This document shows, piece by piece, positions 5,218 through 55,450 of a stretch of 64,000 bases of DNA. A model generated the notes under the pieces. That model saw nothing but the letters and a program-made list of their open reading frames with translations, ran no database searches and was not told the origin of the DNA. A program made the translations under genes and the position numbers. Source of the DNA: Eunapius fragilis (taxonomy: Eukaryota; Porifera; Demospongiae; Spongillida; Spongillidae); assembly GCA_963681505.1 (NCBI GenBank), contig OY811977.1, positions 530,001-594,000 on the forward strand. The letters run 5' to 3'. How positions within the stretch are numbered: position 1 is the first letter of the stretch; every line of letters starts with the position of its first letter.

Positions 5218-5329
5218 CGTTGAGGGAGGGAGGGGATCAGTTTGGGGGAGGAGGAGGGTATGACGACATTCTCGTTCCCAGCCCCACTTCGTTTTTAAGG
5301 CGCGGCGCGGGATTGAGCCGCCTTTAAGA
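5218..5329. promoter_or_regulatory. 112 bp divergent promoter region
   Basis: Gap between the start codons of SPRYD3 (minus) and LRR-Ig gene A (plus), G+C-rich near gene A (GGCGCGGCGCGGG). The corresponding region upstream of gene B at 27.5 kb is unrelated, so the two paralogs have different promoters. Confidence 0.5.
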
Positions 5330-8300
5330 ATGGAGCCGTACGGAAGAGCAGCGTGCTTGGCAGTCCTATGGACGCAGGTGGTGTTGCTAGCAATAGGCCA
5401 GGTGTACTGCCCCGACCTCTGCTATTGTTACGAAAACCTTGCTCCAGATGGGTACACGTACACCGTCGATTGCAGCTATGAAGAGCTGTCGTCCGTACCG
5501 GCCTTCATTCCTACGAACACGACTCGTCTGTCAGCTTTGGGTGGGGGGGAAGGGGAAATATCGCTGACGAAAATGCGCCTGTCTCTCACTCCGCTTTTTC
5601 TCTTTCCATATGTGCAGGGACCTCAGTAATAACTACATCGGAAGGATCAGGAGGTCTGATCTTGCAGGACTAACCTCGCTCGTCTTCTTGTGCGTAAGCA
5701 GTATCCGTATATCTTTTCCGATTACCGCCGCCCGTGCAAACGATTAACCATCATTTCTGATCCGCAGACAGCTCCATGACAACCTCATAGCGGACATAGA
5801 GCCAGGATCATTCAGTGACCTTACCTCACTGCAAGCACTGTGAGAGCTAGTTATATCCTTCCCTTGTGGGATGACGGGTGATCAAAACGATTCATGCCAC
5901 TATCCCGCGAAGGTTCGTTTACAATAACAACGTCAGGACGCTGAAGGCTGGGGCATTAGCAGGCCTGGGAGCACTGTATGAACTGTGAGTGAGCTGGTCC
6001 ACACTGGTGTACTTTTACATTGCCTCCTGGCCCTCAAGAGATGCACACAACATACACCTGGAGAGCTTTGCAGAGGGAGTGTTTAGCCCTCTGAATAATG
6101 TCTATTACATGTTAAGTCTTCCCCCCCCACCCCCCTCCTCCCCACTCCAATGGGTGTATACCTTCTGCCCCTCCCTTGTCTCTACAGTGACCTCAGTGAT
6201 AACAGGTTGGAGGTACTTCCCCCTAACTCCTTCACAGGGCTGACCAAACTGCAGACTTTGTAAGTCTTTAGTCCAGAGCAGACACCTTCTTTAGTTATTT
6301 TTATCTTCTGCAACATTCTTTCGTTAGTCACTGTGACACTGTGTCTCATATAGGTTACTTAATGGCAGCTTTATTCAGAGCATCCAGAGGGGAGCTCTCA
6401 TCAACTTACCATCTCTTCAGGCTGTGTATGTTCTGTATGTCTTCTGTGTGGCCTAAATGTCCTGATGTCATTCCCATAGCAACCTTGATTACAACGGCCT
6501 GATGCACGTCGCCATGGCGGCCTTTGTTGCCCTCCCAAGCATACGCAACATGTAAGCATTTATAAGCCACACCCACTATCCCTATTGCTACACCCATTCC
6601 TTTCTTAACGTGCTAGTAGCCACATATCCTTATTTAGAGAGCTTAGGCAGTGGTTGGTATGTGCATAGTATTCGGCAGCCGATGTGTTATTATTTAAAGG
6701 GAACGTATTTGCATTAAGCTATACTTACTGCTTCCTAAGACAACCCAGAAGGATGGCCTTTATCCTTTTTTGAAATATTGAAACGTCTTCTTGAAAGATC
6801 TGTATTGTGTTGAAATTGTGGTCCGACTATACCCTATGCCCTCCCCCCCCCTCCCCCCTCTCCCCTCCCCTCCCAGCTCCCTCCAGATGAACCAGTTTGT
6901 GTGTGACTGTGAGGCTGTATGGCTGCTTGGGTGGTTGCTGAAAAAGGGCGTGGTTGGTCCCCTGTGTACCTACCCCGCCCCCCTCCTGGGTCGTCCCCTC
7001 CTCCAGCTGAAGCCACAGGACATATGCAGTGAGACACCTTCTTCTGTGCCCAGTGTACAGTGATGGGTGTGAGCCCTCCCCCTCTCCTCCCCACTCCAAG
7101 GGCCTCCTAGTGTTGCCATGGCTACCTCACCCTACGTGATTCTCAACCAATCAGCAACACTGATGCTGTTCTGTAATGCCTCTGGAGCCCCTCCCCCAAA
7201 GGTCCAATGGTCTGTGAATGGTTTTCCATTTAACCCCATGGACACCAGGGTGACGTCAAATGACACAAGCCTGAGGATAACAAATGTGGGGGTTAATGAC
7301 TCTGGTGTGTACTACTGCTGTGCCACCTCTGGTGCCAGCAGTGTGTCCTCCAGTGTATATGTCACTGTGCTGGGTGAGCTGGTGGGATGGTGATGGTGAT
7401 GGGGGTGAGAACACCTGGTTGTGTTTTGACACCTGGTGTGATACTCCTCTCAGATCTGACATCAGAGAACAACGTCTTCACTACTGCCTACGTTGGCACT
7501 ACTGCTCTGGTCCCTTGTGCCCAACCACTTCCTGTGTCACTTCCTGTCACCTGGCTGTTTCTTGGTAGTGCACTGAAGGCCTCACCAAAATACACCATCA
7601 CCTCCAACTCAACACTATTGGTGAACAATGTCTCCCTTAGCGATGATGGACTGTACCAGTGTGTTGTGGGTGGGGCTACAGCGCTGAAGAGAAGACTGAC
7701 AGTGATTGGTTAGTTAAATAATTATTGCCCCTCCTCTTGCATTAGCCCCTCCCCTTCCATTAGCCCCTCCCTCTAGTCACTACCAAATGATGACCTGTTT
7801 CTCCACTTGACCCCTCCCCTTCCTCCCTCAAGCCCCTCCCACCATCACCAGGTTCCTCCGTGGCCCATGCAGCAGTCCTCAGTACGTCTCCCTCAACACA
7901 TCCAGCATAGGTGACTTTGTATGCGATGCCTTTGGAGTCCCTCCCCCCACCATCCAATGGCTGTACAACGGAGGCTCTATTAGCCGTAGTAACCCTTCGA
8001 GTACTTTTACTCAACCTCGTGTTGTCACCTCCACTAACATGACTCACACATTTCTGATGTCATTATCCACTAACATCTTCAACAACATCATGGTGATACC
8101 CCCTGAAGCAGGAGGGAATTACACCTGTGTGGCTTCCAATCCCTACGGCTCTGATGTGAGGTCAACCTTTGTGGACCTTGTAGGTAGGTGACATTATGGT
8201 TGTCATGTGACTACCATGTGATCTGGTGACAACCATTATGTCTGTCTTGTGACTATCATGTGATACAGTGCCATTATGGTTGTCATGTGACTGTCATGTG

Positions 8301-11300
8301 ATCCCATAGCCTTGCATGGGAACATGAATGAATATGTCACTATGCAACTTTATAAATATTAATTGTTAAGTTAATGTTAAGTTACTGTTGGATGTAAGAG
8401 ACCACTATATGACAAATTAGTCCTCTATTAAATAGGATTAATAGGATCTCAATCTGTTTCATGTTTAGTGTTACTAATAAATTAAATCCACAGCATCAAG
8501 ATTTAAACATTATTAGAGTAAAGCTTTCACACTTCTCTTTTATTAAAGGCCAAAATTACGAGTAGTTTGGTTTTGCCATTTTTATTTTCAATTTCTGTTT
8601 AAGTTAACATCAATCTTACCTTAATAAACCCCTAATTGCTGATAGGTAATATTTGGACTGCTTTAATACGCGTCCTTGGTGGACTTCTTCACCTTATGAT
8701 TGGCATATACTTCACTGTGGGTGTCATGTGACCTGCGTGTGACTACTGTGTCCCCTTTCTCATTTCCAATAGTTGCCCTCCAGCCACCAGCCACGTTTGA
8801 TATCAATCACGACTCCATCACCGCCTTCCTGAATCAGTACCTGGTCTTACCATGCGATGTTGTGGCCCCTGCTAATGTGACTGTCAGTTTGAAATGGATT
8901 GGTCCCATCCCACCAACCGCCTTTGTCACCAAGGGAGGGTCACTTGTGTTTCTCGTGCTGATGGGTGGGGTGGAATACAGATGCCAAGTCCAAGGGGGTG
9001 GGGCACAGATTGATAGAATATATCGTATTTCTATTCGAGGTAAGAGGTACGAGAATCACTCAGACATCTACAAAGTAAACACAAACACAACACTTTAAAA
9101 CCATCCAGAATAATTTTTGCACACCCACAAATGTTTCACATAGCTTTAATATTAAGCACATAGTCATAAAAATAGGAGTTTTAAAATGTTTCCCTAGAAA
9201 TGCTACCTTTCGAGGGGGAGGGAGGGAGGAGGGAAGGGAAGGAGAGAAGAGGGGAGGGAAGGAGAGAAGAGGGAAGGGAAGGAGAGAAGAGGGAAGGGAA
9301 GGAGAGAAGAGGGGAGGGAAGGAGAGAAGAGGGTAGGGATACATTACTAACCATTTGGGAAATGTGTTCACATGTACAGAATCCCCCTCCATCATGAAGG
9401 AGTGCCCAGTCCCTACTGTCTCCTGCCTGCTTGGACAGACAGTGGGACTACTTTGCAACGTAACTGGTGCCCCGCCCCCTTTAGTCACATGGTACAGGGG
9501 TGGGGCCATGTTGTCATCGGGACGCTACAAGGTAGGATCCAATGGAGCTCTGGTCATCACCATGGCAACCATGGAGGACACTGGTGTATACACTTGTGTG
9601 GCCTCGAACAGTTACAATGAAATGGACAGCTATGATGTTTCACTTCAAGTGTTTAGTAAGTGTGGTCACCACTGTAAGACTGTATTACTTATGGTCTTGC
9701 TCTAATTACACAGAGAAACCATATTTTACACGATCGCCATCATCAGTGGGTGTGGCTGAAACGGACCCCGCCCAATTACAGTGTTCTGGGGCGGGGCTTC
9801 CGGCTCCTACTGTCACATGGTGGAAAGTCGACAGCACTACCTCCATGGCAACCCAGGTGTTGCCTTCCAGTGGTACAGTTATCAGTAGTGAGTACATGGT
9901 GATACTAAGAACCACGGTGATGGACAGAGGGTACTACTACTGCAACCTCTCTTCCCCCGTGGGCGTTGTCACAAGTCCCCAGGCCTACCTTAATGTGTTT
10001 GGTAAGTTGCATGACATTTAGAAAATGCAACTGTCAACCACAACCTATCAGCCACACCTCTATCAGCCATACCCCTGTCAGCCATAACCCTGCTACACCC
10101 CTGTCAGCCACACCCCTGACCCTGTCAACCACACCCCAGTCAGCCATAACCCTCTCAGCCACACCCTTGTCAGCCACAACCGTCAGCCATAACCTGTCAG
10201 CCATGCCTCTGTCAGCCTCACCCCTGTCAGCCACGCCCACACCCCTATAAGCCACACCCCTGTCAACCATACGCTCCCCTACCATCAAAGATTTTGTTGA
10301 ACTGTGTAGTTTATTGAGAGCAAATTATTTCTTACTTGTGGGCAAGGTGAAACTGGATGCAACGGACTTAAAATTGCGAGGGTTAATATTGAAGTCTGTT
10401 TAATAAAGTTTAATAACACGTTGAGATAGTGTTATTAGTCAATTTTCAATGCCTTCCCAGATTACTGGACCACTCACTGTGGTTTAAAAAAAATTTTCTT
10501 AATTGGTTTGGAGGGAAAAAAATTACTGGATTTTGAAAAGCCGTGAAGTGAATACATTTTCATTTAGCTAGTGGACTGCATTTGTAAGGCTCATATGTAT
10601 GCATATAAACCCCTTTGTGTTTTAACCCCTTGACAGCTCCTCCTATGTTCCTGCCTTCTCCAAGTGAAGTCAAGACGGTAGATGGTACCAACAGTGTCAC
10701 CATCCCCTGCCCCTCCTCTGGTGAACCTCCTCCCACCATCATCTGGTACTTCAACAACCTCTTCCTGCCGTTGCCAAGGAAACACGCAGTGGACCCCTAC
10801 GGAAACCTTACGGTGCTTCATGTCACCCCACAAGATGAGGGCGTGTACACATGCATTGCATCCAGCCCTGGTGGGGTGCGACAACGTAGCATCACCCTAA
10901 GGGTTAAAGGTCAGACCTAAGGGTCAGTGGTGACCTTTGGTTCATGTTTTCACCCTCCCGCCTCACATCATCCTCCCACCTCACCTCCTCACCCTCCCAC
11001 CTCACCTTCTCACCTCACCTCCCACTTCTCCTCACCTCATAACTTACCTCATCCCCAGTCCTGCCACAGGCATCGGTGACCCCAACCAACATCACAGTGA
11101 ATGAATCCTGCCAAGTAGCAATCTCCTGTTTGGACCATGGAGCTCCTCCCACTAACTTTCAGTGGTCATTTGATGGAAATCCACTTAATGATTCTGATCG
11201 TGTGACCATTCGACCAATGGGAATGTTGCTGATCACCAATGTGTTGCCATTGGATGCAGGGAACTACACGTGTACCGTGTGGGGATCAAATATTTCTGAG

Positions 11301-14300
11301 GCTTCGTCAAGTACTGCCATCTTGTCTGTCTATGCACGGACAGAGGGTGTGGGTAGGTGGAGATGTGATGTGTGTAAGTGCGAGGCGTGTAGGAGGGTGG
11401 AGTTGTGTGAGATGGTAGGTGGGCAGAACTGTGCTTTGTTTGAGAAAGGTGATGCTTCTCACTCTCCTTCCCTCCTCCCCTCTCCTTCCCTCCTCCCCTC
11501 TCCTTCCCTCCTCCCCTCTCCTCCCCTCTCCTCCCTTGTATAGTCCTTCCCTCCATCATATCACCCACACCATCGTTCCAACTGATCCCAGAGGCTGGCA
11601 CCGCACAGTTTGTTTGTGTTGCCACGGGAGACCCAACCCCTTCCATCCAGTGGAGGTTCAATGGTGCTCCAATCCGTAACTTCAGACGCATCAGTATGTC
11701 AGAGAACACTCTCACTGTGCAGCTCCTGAGGTCAACAGACGCGGGTACCTATGCGTGCATTGCTAACAACACTCAAGGGACCACAGCAAGGACCTTCCAA
11801 CTGGATGTAGCTGGTGAGACATCAGTGGGGGGAGGGGAGGGAACCATGGATCGGTGCGTAGTGCATCAAGGAAGAGCAGGAGTGTTTTAATCTGTGCGTG
11901 CCATCACGACAGAATCATTTAGGAGTCATTATATAGCCTATGTTAACTCCCTCCTCCTCCTCCTCCTCCTCCTCCCTCCTCCTCCCTCCCCCTCCTCCCT
12001 CCTCCTCCTCCTCCCCTTTCCACTACAGTCAGCCCCCAGTTCTCCATGGTACCTTCCCCCATCACCCTCCAAGAGGGGAGGAGGCTGTCCCTCCCATGTG
12101 CGGCCTATGGTCACCCAGACCCAGACATCCTCTGGTTCAAGGATGACATTCAGCTCACAAACCCCCTAGTGGACCCCGGCACACAGTCCCTTCAGAGCTA
12201 CAACACCACACCAGGGGACAGTGGAACATACACTTGTCTGGCCCGCAACTTTGCGGGTGTGATCCAGTACAGTGTGGCTGTTGTCATAGAACCAACCACA
12301 GGTCAGGTGATCTGTCACGTGACTATCATGTGATGAGTTGTTCCTCTTCCAACACAGTTCCGCCCACAGTAGTTTCCCCGCCCATCAGCAGTGTGGTTGT
12401 CGTGGGAACATCTGTTGCGTTGGACTGTGTGGTCGATGGTACCCCTCCCCCTAACGTGACATGGTACAAGGACACCGTACGACTAGTCAGCTCTGCTCGT
12501 AGGATGGTCACTTCCAAGTCTGTTTACATAAGAGTTGCCAATGTATCGGACACGGGTGTATACATGTGTGTAGCGGAGAATGTAGCTGGGAGGACTGCCT
12601 ACCAGGCATCCATTACTGTAACGGTACCAGCACCATCTCTGTTAGGTGGGTTAAAAATTTTGTGGGTGGATGTATATGGATGTGTGGGTGGGATGGGTGG
12701 ATGGAATGTGGGGTGGGTGGGTGGGATGTGTGGGTAGGTGGGATTTGTTAGTTTGGAAGAGCAGGTGGAAAGGTTCATTGATGGTGGAAGAGTGTGTCAT
12801 GCTCACATTTGGATTAGGAAGGGTTAATGTGTCATGCTCACATTTGGATTAGGAAGGGTTAATGTGTCATGCTCACATTTGGATTAGGAAGGGTTAATGT
12901 GTCATGCTCACATTTGGATTAGGAAGGGTTAATGTGTCATGCTCACATTTGGATTAGGAAGGGTTAATGTGTCATGCTCACATTTGGATTAGGAAGGGTT
13001 AATGTGTCATGCTCACATTTGGATTAGGAAGGGTTAATGTGTCATGCTCACATTTGGATTAGGAAGGGTTAATGTGTCATGCTCACATTTGGATTAGGAA
13101 GGGTTAATGTGTCATGCTCACATTTGGATTAGGAAGGGTTAATGTGTCATGCTCACATTTGGATTAGGAAGGGTTAATGTGTCAAACCACATCTCTCTGC
13201 CTCCCATAGCGGCCTCTACCCAATCAGGACCACCCTATTTCACCTTTACACCCAGTGACCTCTCAGCAACCATTGGCTCCACCCTCTTCCTGTCCTGTCA
13301 GGCCCATGGGTCACCCACACCTCAGATAACATGGATGTTCAACGGTCACCCTCTCCTCCTCTTTGGGTCTGGGGACAATGTGGTCGTCCATGACAACGGC
13401 ACCCTTGTCATCACAGAACTGACCCGTTCTGATCTGGGCAGCTACACCTGTACAGCATTGAACGCACTTGGCCAGGCCCAGGTTATGGCCACTGTTACCG
13501 AGGCAACACAAACAGGTTTGATGAACACGTATAAGTATTTATATACATCATTCTACCCAGAAGACCTACTATGAGCTTGCAGTACATAATATTTCCTTCA
13601 GTCTATGCTAAAAAAGCTGTTTTTAGCATAGAATTATTATACCATGGTACTTTTCTCTACCAACTTTGTGTGTCCTTCTGAATAGAATGATTTGGTGTAG
13701 AGTGCTACTGCTAATTAAGACGAATTTTGCACTTTGCAATACACATTGCTCAGATACAATTGATTACAAATTACCAGGTATACTGTATAACCTATATTTA
13801 TCAAACTGATTTATTTCGAAAATAATACCTGGGAGCACTCTATAAAGTGAGAATTCCCACATGTATATACATGTTCAGTAGAGTACACCCCAGGGGGCCT
13901 TTAGTACACCCCAGGGGGCCTTTAGTACACCCCAGGCCATTAGTACACCCCAGGCCATTAGTACACCCCAGGGGGCCTTTCTTTAGTACACCCCAGGGGG
14001 CCTTTAGTACACCCCAGGGGGCCTTTAGTAAACCCCAGGGAGCCTTTAGTAAACCCCAGGGGGTGGTCTTTGATCACCTCATGTTGTCAGTTGATAGCAC
14101 AACGTGACAAGAAAGTTTACTGAAATAATTAATAATTGGGGTAACCAGTCCCCAGTCCAACTCTCCTTCCTCCTCAGTCCCTCCACAGTTTAGTACCTTA
14201 CCTCACGGAGCCATACAAGTGTACAATGGTAATAGCCTCATTCTCGACTGCAATGCAACCGGGTACCCAGTCCCATCCATCATGTGGCAGAAAGACAGCC

Positions 14301-14862
14301 GACCAGTGGATGGGAGTGTCAACCAGAACGTGACAATAGCACCTAACCACTCCTTGGTCATCTGGTCCATTAGCCAAGCACTTAGTGGTCTGTACACCTG
14401 TGTGGCTAGAAATGATGTGGGTGTGGCCTACGCTGCTGTCCAAGTTGAAATAATCCCATGTGAGTTAAGAATAACAGAGGGATGGGTGGGAGAAGGAGAG
14501 GGAGGGAGATGGAGGGAGGATAGGAGAGGGAGAGGGAGGGAGGATTGAGGGAGGGAATGAAGCCAGTTTCCTCCCTGCCCCATCAGCTCCTCCTACTGTC
14601 ACCATCCCAACTCCTAACACCACTGTGCTGGTCGGAGGGATGGTGATATTTGATTGCCAGGTTGGTGGATCGCCTACTCCCTTGGTCTCATGGTTTAATG
14701 GAAGCATCCCTGTGATTGGAGGAGGCTACACTGTGGTGGTGAATAATTCCCTGGTCTTCAAGCGGACCACTCAGTTTGACTCAGGGTCTTATACCTGTGC
14801 TGCGTTCAACCTTAATGGAGTGAACCAAGCAAAGGTCTCACTAACTGTGCTACCAAGGCCTG

Positions 14863-14924
<62 letters not shown>

Positions 14925-15914
14925 GCGTGCGTGTGCATGTAGATAAAGCAATTACTCCCATAGTTTAGTTTCCATGGTAACATCACCACACCCCTTTGCA
15001 GAACCTCCTTTCATCACACGTGCACTTGCTGATGCTCTCGTGGTACAGGGAAGTTACATCATCTTCCCCTGTGAGGCCACCTCTTACCAGGGCACACCCA
15101 CCATTCAGTGGTCATTCAATGGCATCCCTCTGGTCTCCAGTCTGCGATGGAAGGTGCTCTCTGATCAGAGTCTTCTGCTCACGGCTGTAAACCTTAACGA
15201 CACAGGGACGTACAGCTGCATGGCTTCTAACCAATATGGAACTTCAGTTGCAAATGTCACTGTTTGGGTGTTGAGTGAGTGGGTGTATCACCATGGTTAC
15301 CACTGGCATTGTTTACATGTCTCCATGCAGGGATTCCATCTAATGCCTCCCTAATGGCTGTTGCAGGGAGTGCTGTCCAGTTGATCTGCAATGTGACAGG
15401 TACGGTGGTGTGGACGAAGGATGGGAACCCGCTGATGACATCATCAAGGGTGGTCATTGGCCCGCAGAAGCAGGTGTTTATCTCCAATGTCCAAACCAGT
15501 GATGAGGGAGAGTACAGATGTGATGGCGGGGGAAGGTGGAACGACACTTTCCTCCAAGTTATGGGTAGGTGGAGACTCCTGGTAACTATTAAATAGTTAG
15601 AAAGATCATCCAATGCTGTTTCCATTATGGCTGTAGCCAAGCCAGTCATCATCACACAGGCCGGCTTCATGTTTGGAAGTGTAGGAAGTACCATCATGCT
15701 GCCATGTGAGGCCACTGGCAAGCCACGCCCCCAGCTATCATGGATGTGGCAGGGGAGGACCCTCCAAGCAGATGGCCACTACGGTCTACTGTACAATGGC
15801 AGCCTTCTTGTGTACTCTGTAGATGACAGAGATGTGGGAGATTACTACTGCATCGCTCAGAATGTAGCGGGGATGGCTCAGAACTTGGTCTCTCTTCAGC
15901 TGTCAATGCCATGA
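5330..15914 (+). CDS. LRR-Ig gene A: secreted protein with 7 LRRs and 17 Ig domains, 1870 aa
   Basis: 26 exons, all phases consistent (5613 nt): 5330-5529; LRR exons of exactly 72 nt at 5618-5689, 5768-5839, 5913-5984, 6039-6110, 6188-6259, 6354-6425, 6480-6551; LRR-CT 6877-7028; Ig exons 7101-7373, 7454-7708, 7833-8183, 8773-9039, 9380-9655, 9714-10001, 10637-10909, 11059-11352, 11544-11813, 12029-12301, 12358-12645, 13210-13515, 14178-14459, 14587-14862, 15002-15274, 15331-15564, 15637-15914. Exon 1 encodes a signal peptide and an LRR-NT cysteine cluster (CPDLCYC...DC). LRR exons are phase 2; every Ig exon is one phase 1-1 domain of I-set/V type (Cys, Trp, then D-x-G-x-Y-x-C). The chain ends right after Ig17 with no transmembrane segment, so it is predicted to be secreted or matrix-bound. 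LRR arrays followed by many Ig domains in a secreted chain recall MXRA5/IGSF10, but orthology is not claimed. Many N-x-S/T sites. An inverted paralog (gene B) follows. A recognition or adhesion role is inference. Confidence 0.9.
8330..8700. other. AT-rich segment present only in gene A intron 12
   Basis: Gene B has a short intron here (24856-24949) flanked by the same GGTGACATTATGG sequence. The A copy carries about 400 bp of extra AT-rich sequence, either an insertion in A or a deletion in B. No clear terminal repeats seen. Confidence 0.5.
9207..9345. repeat. purine-rich minisatellite
   Basis: Tandem AGGGAAGGAGAGAAGAGGG units (about 19-20 bp) in intron 13 of gene A, about 35 bp before the Ig5 acceptor. 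Confidence 0.85.
10040..10272. repeat. degenerate CAGCCACACCCCTGT minisatellite
   Basis: About 15 imperfect copies of a 14-16 bp unit in intron 15 of gene A; not present in the corresponding gene B intron. Confidence 0.8.
11461..11537. repeat. CTCCCCTCTCCTTCC tandem repeat
   Basis: Pyrimidine tract directly upstream of the Ig9 acceptor in gene A. Gene B has a similar tract at 22396-22472. Confidence 0.8.
12790..13185. repeat. 35 bp minisatellite, about 11 copies
   Basis: Near-perfect copies with core GTCATGCTCACATTTGGATT, period 35, in intron 20 of gene A. The same intron of gene B carries a wholly different 18 bp minisatellite (20938-21300). Confidence 0.92.
13878..14062. repeat. minisatellite AGTACACCCCAGGGGGCCTT
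   Basis: About ten 14-23 bp copies in intron 21 of gene A. Related single units (GACCCCCCTGGGGTGTTC) occur at 19709-19745 in gene B. Confidence 0.8.
14864..14938. repeat. (GT)n microsatellite at the Ig14 donor
   Basis: The GT run begins at the donor of the Ig14 exon. The same microsatellite is present at the same place in gene B (17700-17779), showing that it predates the last homogenisation of the arms. Confidence 0.9.
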
Positions 15915-16003
15915 CAATAACCTGCTTATCAGACAACGATGGCCTGGTAATCTGACCGCATATATAATTTTCGGAATGTTAACGCAAACATTGTACATTT
16001 AAA

Positions 16004-16636
16004 AAATACTTGAGAATACGGCAGTGGCGTGGGAAAAGGAAAGAAAAAACTAATTATTCAATAGTTAGGTGTGGCAATTGAAGGGTGGCTCGTCCCAGAC
16101 CACATGACGTAACGATTATCGCTATATCTGTCTGGGAAATAAGAACGACGCACTTGTCAGAGCACATACAAGATTTTGCACAAACGTCACATCATATGCA
16201 CAGCTGATTTGCCGTCGGTATCCAGTTGGCAACCTGACGAAAATATATTTTCCTTGCATGAAGGTCTTTATTGCGTCCATCTGTTGTGGACGTAGGTCTA
16301 CCTGCACGCAAAACCGTGTTCGCACATTTCCATACTTTAATTCAGCTAAATTATGGACGAGACTAAATGACAGGTGCCGTGACCGGTTTCATTAACGGCG
16401 ATTGTTTTGAAGTTGACCTGATCTTCCAAATTACAGGATTTCGTGGCCGTGATAGGTAAGGGTGGTCTACCCAGCTGAAGTTTATGGGGGCTCCTGGCCG
16501 GGTAAGAAAATATACCTAGTCTCGTCCCCAGACCCGGGAGGAGTAGCATCGCCTCGTACCCAGACGTACGCCACCCACTGCCACCCCCCGCCCCCCACTT
16601 TTCTCACGCCAATCTTTGTGCGTGGATCTTCCAAGT
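16004..16636. other. spacer of the inverted duplication
   Basis: About 633 bp of non-palindromic sequence between the arms. It contains a broken RecQ-like helicase fragment on the minus strand and no other gene. Confidence 0.75.
16122..16325 (-). pseudogene. RecQ-like DNA helicase fragment, frameshifted
   Basis: A 67-codon minus-strand frame contains LRPQQMDAIKTFMQG followed by FVRLPTGY, matching motif 0 and the start of motif I (Walker A, PTGxGKS) of RecQ helicases. The Walker A is broken: the frame reads GYRRQIS, but GGC AAA TCA (GKS) is present in another frame, consistent with a small insertion. Only about 110 bp is recognisable. RecQ-like fragments are common as repeated pseudogene pieces in invertebrate genomes; here one sits at the centre of a palindrome. 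Confidence 0.65.
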
Positions 16637-16723
16637 CGTTTAAATGTGTAATGTTTGCGTAACATGAAAATTATATATGCCGTCAGATTACCAGGCCATC
16701 GTTGTCTGATAAGCAGGTTATTG

Positions 16724-17697
16724 TCATGGCATTGACAGCTGAAGAGAGAGCAAGTTCTGAGCCATCCCCGCTACATTCTGAGCGATGCAGTAGTAATCTC
16801 CCACATCTCTGTCATCTACAGAGTACACAAGAAGGCTGCCATTGTACAGTAGACCGTAGTGGCCATCTGCTTGGAGGGTCCTCCCCTGCCACATCCATGA
16901 TAGCTGGGGGCGTGGCTTGCCAGTGGCCTCACATGGCAGCATGATGGTGCTTCCTACACTTCCAAACATGAAGCCAGCCTGTGTGATGATGACTGGCTTG
17001 GCTACAGCCATAATGGAAACAGCATTGGATGATCTTTCTAACTATTTAATAGTTACCAGGAGTCTCCACCTACCAATAACTTGGAGGAAAGTGTCGTTCC
17101 ACCTCCCCCCGCCATCACATCTGTACTCTCCCTCGTCACTGGTTTGGACATTGGAGATAAACACCTGCTTCTGCGGGCCAATGACCACCCTTGATGATGT
17201 CATCAGCGGGTTCCCATCCTTCGTCCACACCACCGTACCTGTCACATTGCAGGTCAACTGGACAGCACTCCCTGCAACAGCCATTAGGGAGGCATTAGAT
17301 GGAATCCCTGCATGGAGACATGTAAACAATGCCAGTGGTAACCATGGTGATACACCCACTCACTCAACACCCAAACAGTGACATTTGCAACTGAAGTTCC
17401 ATATTGGTTAGAAGCCATGCAGCTGTACGTCCCTGTGTCGTTAAGGTTTACAGCCGTGAGCAGAAGACTCTGATCAGAGAGCACCTTCCACCGCAGACTG
17501 GGGACCAGAGGGATGCCATTGAATGACCACTGAATGGTGGGTGTGCCCTGGTAAGAGGTGGCCTCACAGGGGAAGATGATGTAACTTCCCTGTACCACGA
17601 GAGCATCAGCAAGTGCACGTGTGATGAAAGGAGGTTCTGCAAAGGGGTATGGTGATGTTACCATGGAAACTAAACTATGGGAGTAATTGCTTTATCT

Positions 17698-17779
<82 letters not shown>

Positions 17780-20700
17780 CAGGCCTTGGTAGCACAGTTA
17801 GTGAGACCATTGCTTGGTTCACTCCATTAAGGTTGAACGCAGCACAGGTATAAGACCCTGAGTCAAACTGAGTGGTCCGCTTGAAGACCAGGGAATTATT
17901 CACCATCATAGTGTAGCCTCCTCCAATCACAGGGATGCTTCCATTAAACCATGAGACCAAGGGAGTAGGCCATCCACCAACCTGGCAATCAAATATCACC
18001 ATCCCTCCGGCCAGCACAGTGGTGTTAGGAGTTGGGATGGTGACAGTGGGAGGAGCTGATGGGGCAGGGAGGAAACTGGCTTCATTCCCTCCCTCAATTC
18101 TCCCTCCCTCTCCCTCTCCTATCCTCCCTCCCTCTCCTTCTCCCAACCCATCCCTCTGTTATTCTTAACTCACATGGGATTATTTCAACTTGGACAGCAG
18201 CATAGGCCACACCCACATCATTTCTAGCCACACAGGTGTACAGACCACTAAGTGCTTGGCTAATGGACCAGATGACCAAGGAGTGGTTAGGTGCTATTGT
18301 CACGTTCTGGTTGACACTCCCATCCACTGGTCGGCTGTCTTTCTGCCACATGATGGATGGGACTGGGTACCCAGTTGCATTGCAGTCGAGAATGAGGCTA
18401 TTACCATTGTACACTTGTATGGTTCCGTGAGGTAAGGTACTAAACTGTGGAGGGACTGAGGAGGAAGGAGAGTTGGACTGGGGACTGGGGACTATGTGTG
18501 CTGACGGTACACATTGGTGATGTGATGGAGGAGATGTAGGGCTGTGATGAAATGATGAAGGTTGTGGTGATGTGATGTAGGGCTGTGATGAAATGATGAA
18601 GGGTGTGGTGATGTAGGACTGTGATGAAATGATGAAGGGTGTGGTGGTGTGATGTAGGGCTGTGATGAAATGATGAAGGGTGTGGTGATGTGATGTAGGG
18701 CTGTGATGAAATGATGAAGGGTGTGGTGGTGTGATGTAGGACTGTGATGAAATGATGAAGGGTGTGGTGATGTAGGACTGTGATGAAATGATGAAGGGTG
18801 TGGTGATGTGATGTAGGACTGTGATGAAATGATGAAGGGTGTGGTGATGTGATGTAGGGCTGTGATGAAATGATGAAGGGTGATGTGATGTAGGGCTGTG
18901 ATGAAATGATGAAGGGTGTGGTGATGTGATGTAGGACTGTGATGAAATGATGAAGGGTGTGGTGATGTGATGTAGGACTGTGATGAAATGATGAAGGGTG
19001 TGGTGATGTAGGACTGTGATGAAATGATGAAGGGTGTGGTGATGTGATGTAGGACTGTGATGAAATGATGAAGGGTGTGGTGATGTGATGTAGGGCTGTG
19101 ATGAAATGATGAAGGGTGATGTGATGTAGGGCTGTGATGAAATGATGAAGGGTGTGGTGATGTGATGTAGGACTGTGATGAAATGATGAAGGGTGTGGTG
19201 ATGTGATGTAGGACTGTGATGAAATGATGAAGGGTGTGGTGATGTAGGACTGTGATGAAATGATGAAGGGTGTGGTGATGTGATGTAGGCTGTGATGAAA
19301 TGATGAAGGTTGTGGTGATGTGATGTAGGGCTGTGATGAAAGGATGAAGGGTGTGGTGATGTGATGTAGGGCAGTGATGAAATGATGAAGGTTGTGGTGA
19401 TGTGATGTAGGGCTGTGATGAAAGGATGAAGGGTGTGGTGATGTAGGGCTATGATGAAATGGAGACTACATATTGGAGGACAATTGAGGAACTGTAGCAC
19501 ACATCATCATACCCCTACATCACACTATCACACCTCTAATCACACCATTACACCTAATCACATTAAATATCCTAGATTACACACCACACCCTGTATCACA
19601 TCATCATATCTCTACACCACATCATCACATTCCTACATCACATCATCACACCCCATGACATCATCTCTTGATACCCTTATATCACATCATCACATATCTA
19701 TTACTATAGACCCCCCTGGGGTGTTCTATAGACCCCCCTGGGATGTACTCATTTGCACCATTGAACAAGTAATTACATGTAGGTCATTTTCACTTCTTTG
19801 ATGGCAAATTTACATACTTATACGTGTTCATCAAACCTGTTTGTGTTGCCTCGGTAACAGTGGCCATAACCTGGGCCTGGCCAAGAGCGTTCATTGCTGT
19901 ACAGGTGTAGCTGCCCAGATCAGAACGGGTCAGTTCTGTGATGACAAGGGTGCCGTTGTCATGGACGACCACATTGTCCCCAGACCCAAAGAGGAGGAGA
20001 GGGTGACCGTTGAACATCCATGTTATCTGAGGTGTGGGTGACCCCTGGGCCTGACAGGGCAGGAAGAGGGTGGAGCCAATGGTTGCTGATATGTTAGTGG
20101 GTGTGACAATGAAATATGGCAGCCTTAGTCGAGTGGAGGCTACAGAAGTGGACGAAAGGGTCAAAGGCTTGACAGCTGGAGGGGTGCGTGGGGGAGGTGT
20201 GGGCACAGGGAGGTCCATACAATACCATCACACCATCACTAGTCATCGTTAGTGTACACACACCATCACTAAAGACCGCGACACCATCGAAGAAGTAAAA
20301 ATTATGCACTCTTTTTAAAAATAAAAGGTGTCTTTGGGGTCTAAATAATAGGTAAGACATTATTTTCCGCAGACTATCTTGTATTATTAAAAATTCAGTG
20401 AGTTGAAACTAATGAGCGAGACTATTATTGACGATAATTAACAAGTAGCGTGTGTGGTCACTAATGAAATTCACATGAAAACACTTTGAAACGTCAAGCG
20501 AATAAAGTACAAGTAGTGGCCTTATCTAACACTAAGCAAACTATGGTTCTGAACAGTTGAATTGTTTGTGTAACAGTCTAAAAGTGGCACCAGTAATGAG
20601 GCTAAAAAGTGAAGAATGTATTCTTGAAAATCAAACAGTGTAAAAGCAGAAGACAAGATATTGTATACTTAGAGGTATCAATACATGTAGAATCAAAATT

Positions 20701-23700
20701 TTAAATGCGGTACAAAATAATGGTCGAATTGAATAAATATTTTTATAGTACCCCCCCCCCCCCCCCCGTTAACTTGAAATTTTTGACTAATTGTTAAGCT
20801 GCACAAGGTTCATTTTTATAACCAACATAGCTGGTAGATTTCTACACATTGTGGTATTGTGGGCATGAATTTAATGTTATTCATTAAGAAGCCATTAACA
20901 TTTACTCAATTCCGCAATGGGTCATGGACTTAATGTACACACACCATCACTAATGCACACACACCATCACTAATGTACACACACCATCACTAATGAACAC
21001 ACACCATCACTAATGCACATACACCATCACTAATGTACATACACCATCACTAATGTAAACACACCATCACTAATGCAACACCATCACTAATGCACACACA
21101 CCATCACTAGTGTACAGACACCATCACTAATGTAAACACACCATCACTAATGCAACACCATCACTAATGCACACACACCATCACTAGTGTACAGACACCA
21201 TCACTAATGTAAACACACCATCACTAATGCAACACCATCACTAATGCACACACACCATCACTAGTGTACACACACCATCCCTAATGCACATACACTATCA
21301 CTATATCACTCACAGGATGTGTTCATTGTCACACCAATGAAGGCCTCTGCAGCGGTTCTACCAGCCATGTTCTCCGCTACACATGCGTACCGCCCTGAGT
21401 CTGAGAGAAGTGCCGGCGATATATGGAGGGTCCCCAGGCTTATATTCACACGAGCAGAGCTGACTAGTCGTATGGTGTCCTTGTACCATGTCACGTTAGG
21501 GGGAGGGGTACCAGTGACCACACAGTCCAATGCAACAGATGTTCCCACGACAACCACACTGCTGATGGGCGGGGAAACTACTGTGGGCGGAACTGTGTTG
21601 GAAGAGGAGCAACTCATCACATGATAGTCACGTGACAGATCACCTGACCTGTGGTTGGTTCTATGACAACAGCCACACTGTACTGGATCACACCCGCAAA
21701 GTTGCGGGCCAGACAAGTGTATGTTCCACTGTCCCCTGGTGTGGTGTTGTAGCTCTGAAGGGACTGTGTGCCGGGGTCCACTAGGGGGTTAATGAGCTGA
21801 ATGTCATCCTTGAACCAGAGGATGTCTGGGTCTGGGTGACCATAGGCCGCACATGGGAGGGACAGCCTCCTCCCCTCTTGGAGGGTGATGGGGGAAGGTA
21901 CCATGGAGAACTGGGGGCTGACTGTAGTGGAAAGGGGAGGAGGAGGAGGAGGAGGAGGGAGAAGGAGGAGGGAGGAGGAAGGAGTTAATATAAGCATATT
22001 TAATGACTCCTAAATGATTCTGTCGTGATGGCACACACAGATTAAAACACTTCTGCTCTTCCTTGATGCACTACGCACCGATCCATGGTAGCCCCTCCCC
22101 TCCCTCCCCCCACTGATGTCTCACCAGCTACATCCAGTTGGAAGGTCCTTGCTGTGGTCCCATGAGTGTTGTTAACAATGCACGCATAGGTACCCGCGTC
22201 TGTTGACCTCAGGAGCTGCACAGTGAGAGTGTTCTCTGACACACTGATGCGTCTGAAGTTACGGATTGGAGCACCATTGAACCTCCACTGGATGGAGGGG
22301 GTTGGGTCTCCCATGGCAACACAAATGAACTGTGCGGTGCCAGCCTCTGGGATCAGTTGGGATGATGGTGTGGGTGATATGATGGAGGGAAGGACTATAC
22401 AAGGGAGGAGAAGGGAGGAGGGAAGGAGAGGGGAGGAGAGAGAGGAGGGAAGGAGAGGGGAGGAGGGAAGGGAGTAGTGTAAGATGATCATTAGATACAC
22501 CCCAGTACTAACATGGTTCCATAGGTACATCAACGTTCAATGCTGCCGTACTTGAAGCTGTACCAGCTGAGTTCCACACTGTACAGGTATAATTGCCAAC
22601 GTCATATCTGCTGGCATTGGCAATGACCAGCATTCCCATTGGTCGAATGGTGACACGCCCAGAAGAGATCAGTCGACGTCCGTTCAGTGACCACATGTAG
22701 TTGATGGGCGGAGCCTGATGGTCAGTACAGTAGAACATGACCTGACACAATCCCTTCACCTGAGCAGTGGGTGGGGCTACATCTACCTGGGGCAACACTG
22801 CACCAGGTCAGAGAGGCATTAAAAACTTCATGATCTGATTGAAACATCACATCGGTTTGTTACAAGTAAAAGGGAAAGTGAAACATGTAATGATTGCAGT
22901 GTGTGTCACTAGTAGAGACAACAACTTCTTCCTAATGTACAGAGGAGCATTTCTAGGTGATGTCACATCCTGAGTACAAAATAACCAGATCCTGAAGTTG
23001 TCCATTCAGTTTCAAAGTTATTGTATCACAGCTAATCATTTTGTGTGTGTTGAATTAACCATATGCTCACGTGTTCTTAAGGGTTAAAATAGCAAATGAG
23101 CTTACCTTGTACCGTGAGGGTGACCGTGCGGGTCTTAGCACCAGCTTTGTTTATTGCTTTGCATGTGTAGGTGCCAGCATCTTGGGGGTTAACGCTGAGC
23201 ACGGTGAGACTACCACTGGGGTCTATGGTGTATCTGTCCGACTGTAAGAGCAGCACAGAGTTGAAGTACCAGAAGGTGGTGGGAGGTAGTTCACCAGAGG
23301 AGGGGCAGGGGATGGTGACACTGTTGGTACCATCTACCGTCTTGACTTCACTTGGAGAAGGCAGGAACGACGGAGCAGCTGTCAAGGGGTTAAAACAAAA
23401 GGGGTTAAAACACATGGGACGTTGGATGAAAGAGTTAAAACACATGGGTGTTAAATGGGTTAAACTTGGTTATGTGTGTATGTGTGTGTGCAACACCCTG
23501 ATATGTACATCAGAGCTGAAATGCTAAAATGTAATTACACAATCAGCTGACTTACTGAACACATTAAGGTAGGCCTGGGGACTCGTGACAACGCCCACGG
23601 GGGAAGAGAGGTTGCAGTAGTAGTACCCTCTGTCCATCACCGTGGTTCTTAGTATCACCATGTACTCACTACTGATAACTGTACCACTGGAAGGCAACAC

Positions 23701-24314
23701 CTGGGTTGCCATGGAGGTAGTGCTGTCGACTTTCCACCATGTGGCAGTAGGAGCCGGAAGCCCCGCCCCCAAGCAGGACAACTGAGCAGGTGTGCCTTCA
23801 TTGACAGCTGAGGAGATTGGACCTTGCGTGATGATAGGGGGCACTGCGAAGGAGGGAGGAGGGGAAGGGGAGGGGGAGAGGAGGAAGAGGAGAAGGGGAG
23901 GAGGGGAGGAGAAGGGGAGGAGGGGAGGAGGAGGGGAGGAGGAGGGGAGGAGGAGGATGAGATGAGGGAAAAAGTGGTGTCATTGAAGTATAATATGTTC
24001 TAAGTCTCCACACACGTACTGATTATCTCCAGCATTGTGGTGTACATGTCTACTTCGTTGTTGATGTTGGAGGCCTTGCATGTGTACACACCAGTGTCAT
24101 TTCCAGTGGTCGAGCTCACAACAAGAGCACCAGATGTGGCGTTGATTGCAAAGTGCTCAGTAGTAGTAGTAGCAGTAGCAGGAATCTCCTTGTCATCTTT
24201 GTACCATTTGATGGTGGGGGGTGGGGCCCCTCTGGCAGTGCATGGAAGCTGAGCATCCTGCCCCACAGAGAAAGTCAGACGAGGTACCCCACACTCCTTC
24301 CTAATAGAAGGCTG

Positions 24315-24362
<48 letters not shown>

Positions 24363-27300
24363 ATGTGCGTGTGTGTGTGTGTGTGTGTTAATATGTGTGT
24401 GTGTTCATATGTGTGTGTGTTATGTGTTTTTATGTGTGTGTGTTGTGTGTGTTCATGTGATTTAATGCAAGCAAATGCCTTGGATTGTATGGATAACTTC
24501 ACAACCAAAACATGACCACCCACATACACATGATGCCACCACATTGCCATCACACATACCACCCACATCTCTCCCTTCTTACCACGGACAGTCACATTGT
24601 ACCTAACGGTCCCTTCTATGGCCTGGCTTGCACAGGTGTACACACCTTTCTCTGGTGCGATAAAAAACAGTGAATTATCCTTAGTGATGAATGCATTAGG
24701 AGGGAGGAGAGAGGAGGGGAAGAGAGGAGATGAGGGAGGGAGGGTCTGGTTTATCCAGACGGAACTCATGTTGCACGTCAAGGTCAGGTTCTGGTTCCGG
24801 TACACCAGTATGGGAACAAGCAGCAGTGACGTTACGTTGCTGATCGTAGAGTTGTCTGTTGTTGTGAAGGAGGATGCAGAGAATACACATGACAACCATA
24901 ATGTCAGCGGATCACATGACAGTCACATGACAACCATAATGTCACCTACCTACAAGGTCCACAAAGGTGGACCTCACATCAGAACCATAGGGATTGGAAG
25001 CCACACAGGTGTAATTCCCTCCAGCATTACTTAGAGCAATGTGATTGGTGGAATTGAATACTACTGAGGCCCTGGCCATATTACTGGGAAGACTGGCAGT
25101 GACTATAATGTAGAGGGGGCGTGTCTTGTTTGGTAGGGCCACCCCATTGTACAGCCATTGGATGGTGGGGGGAGGGACCCCAAAGGCATCGCATACAAAG
25201 TCACCTATGCTGGATGTGTTGAGGGAGACGTACTGAGGACTGCTGCATGGGCCACGGAGGAACCTGGTGATGGTGGGAGGGGCTTGAGGGAGGAAGGGGA
25301 GGGGTCAAGTGGAGAAACAGGTCATCATTTGGTAGTGACTAGAGGGAGGGGCTAATGGAAGGGGAGGGGCAATAATTATTTAACTAACCAATCACTGACA
25401 ATCTTCTCTTCAGCGCTGTAGCCCCACCCACAACACACTGGTACAGTCCATCATCGCTAAGGGAGACATTGTTCACCAAAAGTGTTGAGTTGGAGGTGAT
25501 GGTGTATTTTGGTGAGCCCTTCAGTGCACTACCAAGAAACAGCCAGGTGACAGGAAGTGACACAGGAAGTGGTTGGATGACACAAGGGACCAGAGCAGTA
25601 GTGCCAACATAGGCAGTAGTGAAGACGTTGTTCTCTGATGTCAGATCTGAGAGGAGTATCACAACAGGTGTCAAAACACAACCAGGTGTTCTCACCCCCA
25701 TCACCATCACCATCCCACCAGCTCACCCAGCACAGTGACATATACACTGGAGGACACACTGCTGGCACCAGAGGTGGCACAGCAGTAGTACACACCAGAG
25801 TCATTAACCCCCACATTTGTTATCCTCAGGCTTGTGTTGTTTGACGTCACCCTGGTGTCCATGGGGTTAAATGGAAAACCATTCACAGACCATTGGACCT
25901 TTGGGGGAGGGGCTCCAGAGGCATTACAGAACAGCATCAGTGTTGCTGATTGGTTGAGAATCACGTAGGGTGAGGTAGCCATGGCAACACTAGGAGGCCC
26001 TTGGAGTGGGGAGGAGAGGGGGAGGGCTCACACCCATCACTGTACACTGGGCACAGAAGAAGGTGTCTCACTGCATATGTCCTGTGGCTTCAGCTGGAGG
26101 AGGGGACGACCCAGGAGGGGGGCGGGGTAGGTACACAGGGGACCAACCACGCCCTTTTTCAGCAACCACCCAAGCAGCCATACAGCCTCACAGTCACACA
26201 CAAACTGGTTCATCTGGAGGGAGCTGGGAGGGGAGGGGAGAGGGGGGAGGGGAGAGGGGGGAGGGGAGAGGGGTTACAGGGTAGGGAGTGTGGAACATAA
26301 AGGAACAGTGATGGTACTAACATGGTCTTTATGACCGGGAGAGATACAAACGCCATGGCTTCAACATGCTTCAAATGGTTGTTCATCAGGTTGCTATGGA
26401 ACGGAACATGCAAAGTGATGCTGGCCATATGTGGTCTTACATAGAAAGTAGAGAGGTAAGGTTGTTGAAGGAGCCGGTGGTAAGCCTCTGGATGAAGTTA
26501 CCACTGAGTGCCCTTTGATGCAGGAGATAAAAATAACTAAAGAAGGTGTCTGCTCTGGGTTAAAGACTTACAACGTCTGCAGTTTGGTCAGCCCTGTGAA
26601 GGAGTTAGGGGGAAGTACCTCCAACCTGTTATCACTGAGGTCACTGTGGAGACAAGGGAGGGGCAGAAGGTATACACCCATTAGAGTGGGGAGGAGGGAG
26701 GGGGAGGGGGAGAGACTTAACATGTAATAAATATTATTCAGAGGGCTAAACACTCCGTCTGCAAAGCTCTCCAGGTGTATGTTGTGTGCATCTCTTGAGG
26801 GCCAGGAGGCAATGTAAAAGTACACCAGTGTGGACCAGCTCACTCACAGTTCATAAAGTGCTCCCAGGCCTGCTAATGCCCCAGCCTTCAGCGTCCTGAC
26901 GTTGTTATTGTAAACGAACCTTCACGGGATAGTGGCATGAATCGTTTTGATCACCCGTCATCCCACAAGGGAAGGATATAACTAGCTCTCACAGTGCTTG
27001 CAGTGAGGTAAGGTCATTGAATGATCCTGGCTCTATGTCCGCTATGAGGTTGTCATGGAGCTGTCTGCGGATGAAATGTTACACACACACACACACAAAC
27101 ACGCACACACACACACACACATGTACACACACACACACAGCCGTAATGGGACTCACAGATAGATCAAGTTTCTTAGTCCCTTCAGATCATTCAGCCCCAC
27201 CTTCTCTATATAGTTCCAACTGAGGTCCCTGTGCAAGTGGTTGTGATGATGTTTGTGTGCCAGAAGGGGGCGTGGTCACTAACAGGTGGGTTGTTACGGC

Positions 27301-27483
27301 GGGAAGAAACGCCGGAAACGACGTCATCTGCATTCTGGTGCAGTCCACGGTGTACGTGTATCCGTCGGGGTACAGGTTGGAGTAACAGTAGCAGGCATGA
27401 GGGCACGAGGTGTCGTCCGAGGGCGCGAGTGCCAGCAGCGTCCAAAAGACCAGGCACGCGACGTAGAGGCCGCCCAAGGCCAT
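16724..27483 (-). CDS. LRR-Ig gene B: inverted paralog of gene A, 1867 aa
   Basis: 26 exons in the same order, intact (5604 nt): 27284-27483, 27157-27228, 26993-27064, 26848-26919, 26722-26793, 26572-26643, 26441-26512, 26322-26393, 26072-26223, 25727-25999, 25389-25646, 24950-25282, 24583-24855, 24020-24316, 23556-23843, 23106-23378, 22513-22797, 22125-22394, 21649-21921, 21314-21592, 19837-20139, 18174-18455, 17780-18055, 17364-17636, 17074-17307, 16724-17001. Signal peptide and LRR-NT (CPHACYC...DC), 7 LRRs, LRR-CT, 17 Ig domains, no membrane anchor. Against gene A: exon 1, LRR1, LRR6-7, Ig4, Ig5 and Ig8 are strongly diverged. LRR2-5, LRR-CT, Ig1-2, Ig9-10 and Ig13-17 are near-identical. 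Ig3, Ig6, Ig7, Ig11 and Ig12 are part identical, part diverged. For Ig12 I chose the acceptor CTTCTGTAG|CC; a longer exon is possible. No disabling change was found, so this is a gene, not a pseudogene. Confidence 0.9.
17700..17779. repeat. (CA)n microsatellite (gene B)
   Basis: Same position relative to Ig14 as the GT run in gene A. Confidence 0.9.
18515..19465. repeat. about 41 bp minisatellite in gene B intron 21
   Basis: More than 20 copies of a unit with core TGTGATGAAATGATGAAGGG plus GTGGTGATGTGATGTAGG; some units lack an internal GTGATGT. It accounts for a long chance ORF on the minus strand that runs through into Ig13. Confidence 0.92.
19500..19700. repeat. degenerate CATCATCACA/CTACATCACA repeats
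   Basis: Loosely repeated ATCACAC-type units following the main minisatellite in the same intron. Confidence 0.6.
20268..20512. repeat. interspersed repeat, copy 1
   Basis: Shares GACACCATCGA.GAAGTAAAAATTATGCACTC at one end and GAAATTCACATGAAAACACTTTGAAACG at the other with 46110-46290, in the opposite orientation. It lies in intron 20 of gene B. Confidence 0.75.
20938..21300. repeat. 18 bp minisatellite ACACACCATCACTAATGT
   Basis: About 20 copies with point variants and some 14 bp short units, in intron 20 of gene B. Isolated copies also occur at 20225-20275 next to the interspersed repeat. Confidence 0.9.
22800..23100. other. AT-rich part of gene B intron 16
   Basis: No exon or repeat unit recognised between the Ig7 and Ig8 exons. 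The gene A counterpart (10910-11058) is short and different. Confidence 0.5.
23850..23962. repeat. GGAGGAGGGGA purine repeat
   Basis: GA-rich tract in gene B intron 14; on the coding strand it forms a pyrimidine tract before the Ig6 acceptor. Confidence 0.8.
24317..24450. repeat. (GT)n microsatellite
   Basis: Interrupted GT run directly adjoining the Ig5 acceptor of gene B (CACACACAG|AC on the coding strand). Confidence 0.88.
27078..27140. repeat. (CA)n microsatellite
   Basis: CA run in gene B intron 2, at the outer edge of the homologous arm. Confidence 0.85.
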
Positions 27484-52006: not shown

Positions 52007-52785
52007 GAAGCCTCATCAACACCTTGATGTTAAGATAGTCAAACTTTACCATAGAGATGTCCATAGAAATGTATGGGTGGGAACCTACTTTTGAATTGCT
52101 TGTTAAACCCATACTGAAGCACGAATGCATGAGGTGGCATCAAACAGAGAAAGAGGAATGGTCACTGCTATCTTCCAAGTGTGCAGTTGTTTCCTAGTAA
52201 TAGAAGCCTCATCATCATCAAGTCGATAAGATAGTCAAACTTTACCATAGACATATCCATAGAAATGTATGGGTGGGAACCTACTTTTGAATTGCTTGTT
52301 AAACCCATACTGAAGCACTTTTTAATGCCACCCCGAGCATACCTGCTTTGGTATGGGTTAACCAAGCGATTCAAAAGTAGGTTCCCACCCATACATTTCT
52401 ATGGGAAACCACCCATACATCTCTATGGGAAATATTGACTACCTTAGCAACGAGGTGTTGATGAGACATGCAATATGAGCAAACCACTGCACACTAGGAA
52501 GATAGCAGTAACCACACCTCTAGCATACCAGCTTCGGTGTGGGTTTACCAAGCGATTCAACAGTAGGTTCCCACCCATACATTTCTATGGGAAATTGTAG
52601 ACTATCTTAACATCGAGGTGTTGATGAGACTTGAAATATGTGCAAACCAATGCACACATGGAAGATAGCAGTAACCAAACCTCTATCTCTTTTTAATGCC
52701 ACCCCAAGATACCTGCTTCGGTATGGGTTCACCAAGCGATTCAAAAGTAGGTTCCCACCCATACATTGCTATGGGAAACCACCCA
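52007..52785. repeat. fold-back cluster of a roughly 185 bp repeat
   Basis: Five copies of a segment containing CATAGAAATGTATGGGTGGG and AACCTACTTTTGAAT...TTAACCCATAC: two direct (52050-52125, 52240-52320) then three inverted (52340-52410, 52525-52595, 52710-52785). The outer boundaries carry GAAGCCTCATCAACACCTTGATG and its inverse. Likely nested copies of a non-autonomous fold-back element. Confidence 0.8.
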
Positions 52786-55157: not shown

Positions 55158-55450
55158 ACAAGTAAATAAAAAACATTCTCTATGAGAAAGTTGGTGGCAT
55201 ATAGGATTTGAAGGCAATGGTGGTGTAAACATGAAGGAAACAAGGGTCTAATAATAAGGGAAAATGGAATAGTCCTATATTTAGCACATTTCTATATGTA
55301 GGATATAGTATGTTATTCGTGTGCTAAATATAGGACTATTCCATTTTCCCTTATTATTAGACCCTTGTTTCCTTCCTTTTTACACCACCATTGCCTTCAA
55401 ATCCTATATGCCACCAACTTTCTCATAGAGAATGATTTTTATTTACTTGT
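55158..55450. mobile_element. hairpin (MITE-like) element with 130 bp arms
   Basis: Arms 55158-55287 and 55321-55450 are near-perfect inverted repeats with a 33 bp loop. Ends read ACAAGTAAATAAAAA and its complement. The right terminus coincides with the insert/satellite boundary. Confidence 0.85.

Follow-up and report, generated by a model that had tools for sequence, protein, structure and literature searches.

Introduction

Mosaic concerted evolution has been described for the mammalian gene pairs BMP8A/B, DDX19A/B, and TUBG1/2, in which, according to the available text of PMC2720389, exon-intron segments kept more than 97% alike by conversion lie beside segments that have been diverging since before species splits. 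A freshwater sponge, Eunapius fragilis, shows a similar arrangement in a pair of genes, A and B, on its chromosome 7, where near-identical blocks alternate with strongly diverged islands. As in BMP8A/B, the sponge genes are inverted, and as in the mammalian pairs, for which that text reports no positive selection, no sign of it was seen in the sponge islands, whose synonymous sites are saturated. The sponge pair differs in that its members lie 0.6 kb apart, compared with, for example, 235 kb among the mammalian pairs, and in its 26 exons, at least six main tracts, saturated coding divergence in islands, and block edges inside exons (PMC2720389, available text).

The human red and green opsin genes also combine a mostly homogenized pair with persistent peaks of divergence. 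There, in the account accessible in PMC3924837, the peak lies in an exon flanked by homogenized introns, which implicates selection on coding sequence. In contrast, the sponge island introns cannot be aligned, and the intron between Ig12 and Ig13 is unalignable although both neighboring exons are homogenized. Theory set out in the same part of that source holds that conversion keeps divergence low and that divergence runs away once conversion is restricted.

Other parallels come from Ig-type genes. Siglec-11/16 are likewise neighboring, inverted Ig-superfamily genes with fragmented conversion tracts; they are head to head, 9 kb apart, and encode membrane receptors with opposite signaling, whereas the sponge genes are tail to tail and their products apparently secreted. 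CEACAM32, like our pair, involves an Ig-type paralog captured by conversion only in part, but conversion there affected the leader exon and introns and spared the Ig exons, which are converted in the sponge (PMC7042247, available text). Among the matches listed, the best non-sponge proteins with LRRs followed by many Ig domains are vertebrate MXRA5 and IGSF10, similarity hits that share 22-28% identity with the sponge proteins over part of their length. Hydractinia Alr genes offer a further likeness, being invertebrate Ig-type genes shaped by recombination; they are set apart as a cluster of membrane-protein genes whose polymorphism is known. To our knowledge, mosaic conversion has not been reported before for a gene pair of a sponge, and the open-licence papers listed by our searches included no such case.

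Results

Gene models

Self-BLAST of the 64-kb window (the whole stretch of DNA analyzed) detected two inverted arms, A of ~10.7 kb and B of ~10.8 kb, separated by a 635-bp spacer. Genes A (+ strand) and B (- strand) are convergent, tail to tail, with their 3′ ends facing. A sequence-only reading had described two intact 26-exon genes on inverted arms, in which near-identical stretches alternate with islands. This observation is real and confirmed. Splice models, drawn by eye and by script without RNA evidence, have AG/GT at 25 of 25 introns in both copies and a single terminal stop in coding sequences of 5613 nt (A) and 5604 nt (B). The features are as follows.

5330-15914, + strand: gene A, 1870 aa in 26 exons (splice model with one stop and AG/GT at each of the 25 introns; Pfam)
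5330-5529, + strand: gene A, LRRNT exon (splice model)
5618-6551, + strand: gene A, LRR1-7, 72-nt exons (splice model)
6877-7028, + strand: gene A, LRRCT exon (splice model)
7101-15914, + strand: gene A, Ig1-Ig17, one exon per Ig (splice model)
27483-16724, - strand: gene B, 26 exons, 1867 aa, with the architecture of gene A (splice model; outgroup comparison)
16004-16638, no strand: spacer between the arms, with a dispersed-repeat fragment (arms end at 16003 and 16639)

In both genes, the exon-wise models give the order LRRNT, seven LRRs, LRRCT, and 17 Ig domains. Pfam, run on gene A only, found LRR_8 in four stretches, 16 Ig_3 and 15 I-set matches; it listed neither LRRNT nor LRRCT, which we named by their cysteine pattern. 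An LRR block followed by Ig domains places A, and with it B (80% identical to A), in the LRR-Ig family. LRR proteins of solved structure that match the N-terminal 351 residues of A by sequence include IGFALS, LRIG1, and LRRC4B. The two sponge proteins contain 38 (A) and 41 (B) N-glycosylation sequons.

In a hydropathy scan, the sole strong membrane- or signal-like hydrophobic stretch of each protein was its signal-peptide-like N-terminus; other windows of 1.5-1.8 fall inside Ig or linker sequence. The scan gave no transmembrane segment in the splice models of A and B, which thus do not show the cell-surface character of allorecognition genes, although spliced isoforms may do so.

A SPRY-domain gene (PF00622) lies upstream of A at 3934-5217 (- strand), its start 113 bp from the ATG of gene A on the opposite strand, and the two may have a common bidirectional promoter within 5217-5330. 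Since A has this short divergent intergenic region and B a different upstream region, the two genes may be expressed differently. The outer flanks of A and B gave no blastn match to each other (part of one flank reads N); by tblastx there were seven short matches of 26-46 aa, all in one repetitive stretch. Within the spacer, positions 16130-16350 hold a dispersed-repeat fragment with at least 64 further genome matches (best 40 of 70 candidates scored); it contains a short reading frame that looked helicase-like by eye and gave no hit in Pfam. Elsewhere in the window, very large minisatellite arrays at 52782-53950 and 55450-61710, with a unit of ~115 bp, are rich in CCAATTGG/GGCCAATTGG palindromic motifs.

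Blocks and islands

Nucleotide identity between A and B was 64% in the LRRNT exon and 63% in LRR1, in line with the sequence-only description of exons 1 and 2 as distantly alike. It was 96-99% in LRR2-5, 73-74% in LRR6-7, and 100% in LRRCT. Among the Ig exons, identity was 98-99% in Ig1-2, 86% in Ig3, 57% in Ig4, 62% in Ig5, 89% in Ig6, 78% in Ig7, 63% in Ig8, 97-99% in Ig9-10, 81% in Ig11, 93% in Ig12, and 98-99% in Ig13-17. A two-state model of the A/B codon alignment resolved seven blocks, one of just 24 codons, and seven islands, one of just five; all six islands named in the sequence-only reading are among them. Blocks make up 1255 of the 1851 aligned codons and islands 596, with sharp alternation at both the DNA and codon levels. 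The longest identical run was 315 nt, whereas none of 2000 codon shuffles gave one above 124, and the window variance/mean was 22.0, compared to at most 2.39 in the shuffles. As both values are far above those of the shuffles, the patchwork is not due to chance.

The introns follow the same pattern. Thirteen of the 25 can be aligned over most of their length, most at 90% identity or more, and 12 are unalignable; introns in blocks are alike and mostly short, and those inside islands are unalignable. The homogenized tracts thus take in introns, as in mosaic concerted evolution. Tandem repeats of at least 45 bp occur in 10 of the 12 unalignable introns versus four of the 13 alignable ones (p = 0.015, hand-picked arrays), and two unalignable introns have no tandem repeats. 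In the Ig12-Ig13 intron, gene B carries a specific 118/41-bp minisatellite at 18533-19444, and A has a 21-bp one instead. Blocks and islands are given below in order along gene A, with protein identities, where noted, as A-B/A-Ephydatia/B-Ephydatia.

A 5330-5751 (+), B 27079-27483: island, LRRNT-LRR1; LRR1 50/42/79%
A 5752-6315 (+), B 26516-27078: block, LRR2-LRR5; 96.6% identical
A 6316-6847 (+), B 26253-26515: island, LRR6-LRR7; LRR6 42/38/62%, LRR7 54/50/71%
A 6848-7971 (+), B 25144-26252: block, LRRCT to first part of Ig3; noncoding differences 1/287
A 7972-8110 (+), B 25023-25143: island, middle of Ig3
A 8188-9787 (+), B 23770-24945: island, Ig4, Ig5, and first third of Ig6; Ig4 28/34/76%
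A 9788-10007 (+), B 23550-23769: block, last two thirds of Ig6; isolated tract with unalignable introns on both sides
A 10608-10755 (+), B 23260-23406: block, first part of Ig7
A 10756-11460 (+), B 22476-23259: island, second part of Ig7 and Ig8; Ig8 53/49/84%
A 11461-12500 (+), B 21450-22475: block, Ig9 to first half of Ig11
A 12501-13232 (+), B 20120-21449: island, second half of Ig11 and start of Ig12
A 13233-13544 (+), B 19808-20119: block, most of Ig12
A 13545-14144 (+), B 18489-19807: intron-only island, Ig12-Ig13; copy-specific minisatellites
A 14145-16003 (+), B 16639-18488: block, Ig13-Ig17 and 89 bp beyond the stop codon; 97.5% identical

In the blocks (1255 codons), 26 synonymous differences over 932 sites and 34 nonsynonymous differences over 2833 sites correspond to a dS of 0.028 and a dN of 0.012. 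In the islands (596 codons), pS was 0.722 and pN 0.386, giving a JC dS of 2.47 and dN of 0.54, with two islands beyond correction. Divergence is two-peaked, either ~0.03 or saturated, with little between; the uniform divergence of the aligned arms that the sequence-only reading had itself set against its proposal was not seen. The island dN/dS of ~0.22, a rough figure since synonymous sites are saturated, suggests old, constrained sequence rather than recent diversification. The islands give no sign of positive selection, although with dS saturated past episodes are invisible.

Judged from E. fragilis alone, the ages of the blocks are homogeneous at synonymous sites and heterogeneous at noncoding and at all CDS sites. 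Synonymous divergence is equal across the six larger blocks (p = 0.99). Noncoding sites differ among blocks, from 1/287 to 12/331 (p = 0.016), as do all CDS sites (p = 3e-5), a figure on which short tracts weigh, their ends maybe running into islands. Divergence is higher in the 24-codon end of Ig3 (3/18 versus 23/913 synonymous sites, p = 0.012), where tract ends too may enter islands. Theory in the available text of PMC3924837 covers both a burst of conversion and a steady state, either of which is compatible with these block ages.

Comparison with Ephydatia muelleri

The closest relative among 5.8 billion proteins is Ephydatia muelleri EMCRGX_G023697 (1823 aa), which matches A over its full length at 62% identity; the other 119 of the best 120 of 182 matches are at most 38% identical to A. 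This one protein, with no outgroup DNA, served as the outgroup. It ends at the same Ig as A and B. Overall protein identity is 80.0% between A and B, 64.4% between A and Ephydatia, and 72.8% between B and Ephydatia.

In the blocks, 898 residues are the same in all three proteins, 13 differ only in A, nine only in B, and 275 only in Ephydatia, and 10 are all different. With 275 Ephydatia-only residues versus 22 specific to A or B, the paralogs are closer to each other than to their ortholog. The islands show the reverse grouping: 219 residues are the same, 181 A-only, 34 B-only, 39 Ephydatia-only, and 121 all different, so that B agrees with Ephydatia against A at 181 positions, versus 39 at which A and B agree against Ephydatia. 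In all islands longer than five codons, B groups with Ephydatia (A-only/B-only residues 22/8, 11/0, 14/1, 72/15, 46/8, and 14/2). Gap runs in islands, with neighboring runs counted apart, are shared 12 times by B and Ephydatia, four times by A and B, and four times by A and Ephydatia.

This grouping indicates that A and B split before, or not long after, the genera did. B-only and Ephydatia-only residues are similar in number (p = 0.64), suggesting that the amount of change in B and in Ephydatia has been much the same since the departure of A; the 95% interval of their ratio, 0.53-1.42, would allow A to have branched off from B as late as about midway between the split of the genera and the present. 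The idea that these are old paralogs whose arms were mostly homogenized by conversion, already part of the sequence-only reading, thus stands for the coding sequence and is made firm by the E. muelleri outgroup.

Mismatch to Ephydatia is 24-25% in the blocks, 33% for B in the islands, and 57% for A in the islands. As the block level is near that of B islands and far from that of A islands, block sequence is of B type, and the net flow was probably from B to A. In individual domains like Ig13 and Ig17 (63-65%), this polarity is weaker. B and Ephydatia differ more in island segments (194/594) than in blocks (294/1205, p = 0.0002); such faster change would suit weaker constraint or specialized binding segments. 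No E. muelleri counterpart of A was found among the best 120 of 182 and the best 120 of 147 protein matches, although the gene may still exist, and a search with one Ig3 exon of B gave no hit.

The best match of each A domain is the domain at the same position in B and in Ephydatia, for 17/17 Igs and 7/7 LRRs, which rules out domain shuffling. Exon shuffling at exon borders is ruled out as well, since six of the 16 DNA block ends lie inside exons.

Copies elsewhere in the genome

Searching the genome with the LRR part revealed no further locus above 28% identity. With the Igs of the B islands, matches outside the pair were merely short and single-domain, the top one being 44% identical over 69 aa and another 63% over 27 aa (best 90 of 319 scored). 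Thus, these queries found no third LRR-Ig copy. The B-island search also revealed clusters of Ig-encoding frames at G000:C10:8433442-8447953 and G000:C1:4085640-5587593, with at least 12 matches each, and at C8:7598721-7606940, with at least seven (best 90 of 319). These multicopy Ig arrays on C10, C1, and C8 look like better places for sponge recognition genes than the A/B pair.

Discussion

We consider it likely, judging from the gene models and the outgroup, that A and B are old LRR-Ig paralogs, arranged tail to tail, in mosaic concerted evolution. Until recently, the inverted arms, with the 635-bp spacer between them, would have undergone interlocus gene conversion, by which about two thirds of the coding sequence was either copied or kept shared. 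The net direction was probably B to A, with blocks of the B/Ephydatia type, and old A sequence would survive in the islands, where exchange stopped. The main cause of island persistence may be heterology, in the form of diverged introns, many with copy-specific tandem repeats; selection for A-specific segments is a possible second cause. That island introns are unalignable, and that tandem repeats (hand-picked arrays) are more frequent in unalignable introns, favors heterology over selection, which would leave coding peaks amid homogenized introns, as in the opsin genes. Judging from their architecture, the products are predicted to be long and rigid LRR-Ig proteins, secreted and acting in adhesion or in the matrix, with a common scaffold and putative A- or B-specific binding segments.

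Conversion between ~60%-identical partners is hard, and the blocks may either never have diverged or have been overwritten late. The equal synonymous divergence of the six larger blocks is the pattern expected of a single event and counts against mosaic concerted evolution, but noncoding and all CDS sites differ among blocks. Together with the two-peaked divergence, the equal synonymous divergence fits a history in which a recent inverted duplication of B made A, and islands were later imported into A from a now-lost older paralog or allele. We regard this history as unlikely: it needs at least six imports from a donor that neither the LRR part nor the B-island Igs (best 90 of 319 scored) revealed, and because old or unrelated sequence also makes up the 5′ exons and the region upstream of A, the outer end of the arm would have to have been replaced too.

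The sequence-only reading went further and proposed a candidate diversifying recognition pair, in which a conserved scaffold carries variable patches, and here the results did not follow it. The many Ig domains, the sharply bounded variable patches, the gene conversion, and the larger difference between B and Ephydatia in island segments all suit an allorecognition or immune role, for which Hydractinia Alr and Botryllus provide precedents of polymorphic Ig-type genes. A k-mer completeness of 55.49% for the primary and 71.17% for the combined assembly (PMC12616128, available text) also suggests a very heterozygous animal, in which hidden polymorphism is possible. Yet the islands look long constrained, with a dN/dS of ~0.22 on saturated dS; E. 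muelleri has a whole-length ortholog that is B-like in all islands longer than five codons; the hydropathy scan gave no transmembrane segment in A or B, and the same Ig is the last one in the Ephydatia protein; and there are two genes rather than a cluster, with no third copy found by the LRR part or the B-island Igs (best 90 of 319 scored). Such a pair is therefore quite improbable, the proposal being unsupported rather than refuted.

A related and highly improbable scenario is a recombining recognition system, in which A and B exchange the scaffold within the population and a few islands, possibly ancient allelic lineages in two loci, are held apart by balancing selection for longer than the age of the genera. 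Block divergence would in this case be no larger than allelic divergence. If it were true, each sponge would display a genotype-specific mosaic of secreted LRR-Ig proteins. An assembly artefact, whether a head-to-head join of two haplotypes or a chimera made by amplification, is scarcely credible: although the library was of the ultra-low-input (amplified) type and the draft had much haplotypic duplication (PMC12616128, available text), the window contains no N, the outer flanks share no blastn match (with the part reading N noted above), the islands are too old for ordinary alleles, and both reading frames are intact.

Among known cases of mosaic concerted evolution, the A/B pair is an unusually long and finely divided sponge example. 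It is a striking but recognizable form of gene-pair evolution, and not yet evidence of self/non-self recognition. The pair amounts to a natural experiment on how far gene conversion holds two paralogs together, with at least six homogenized tracts beside islands old enough for grouping by genus and with edges inside domains. As the island introns are lost to alignment too, it allows escape through structural heterology to be tested against selection on the protein. Should polymorphism be found in the islands, sponge recognition genetics would be opened at a defined locus.
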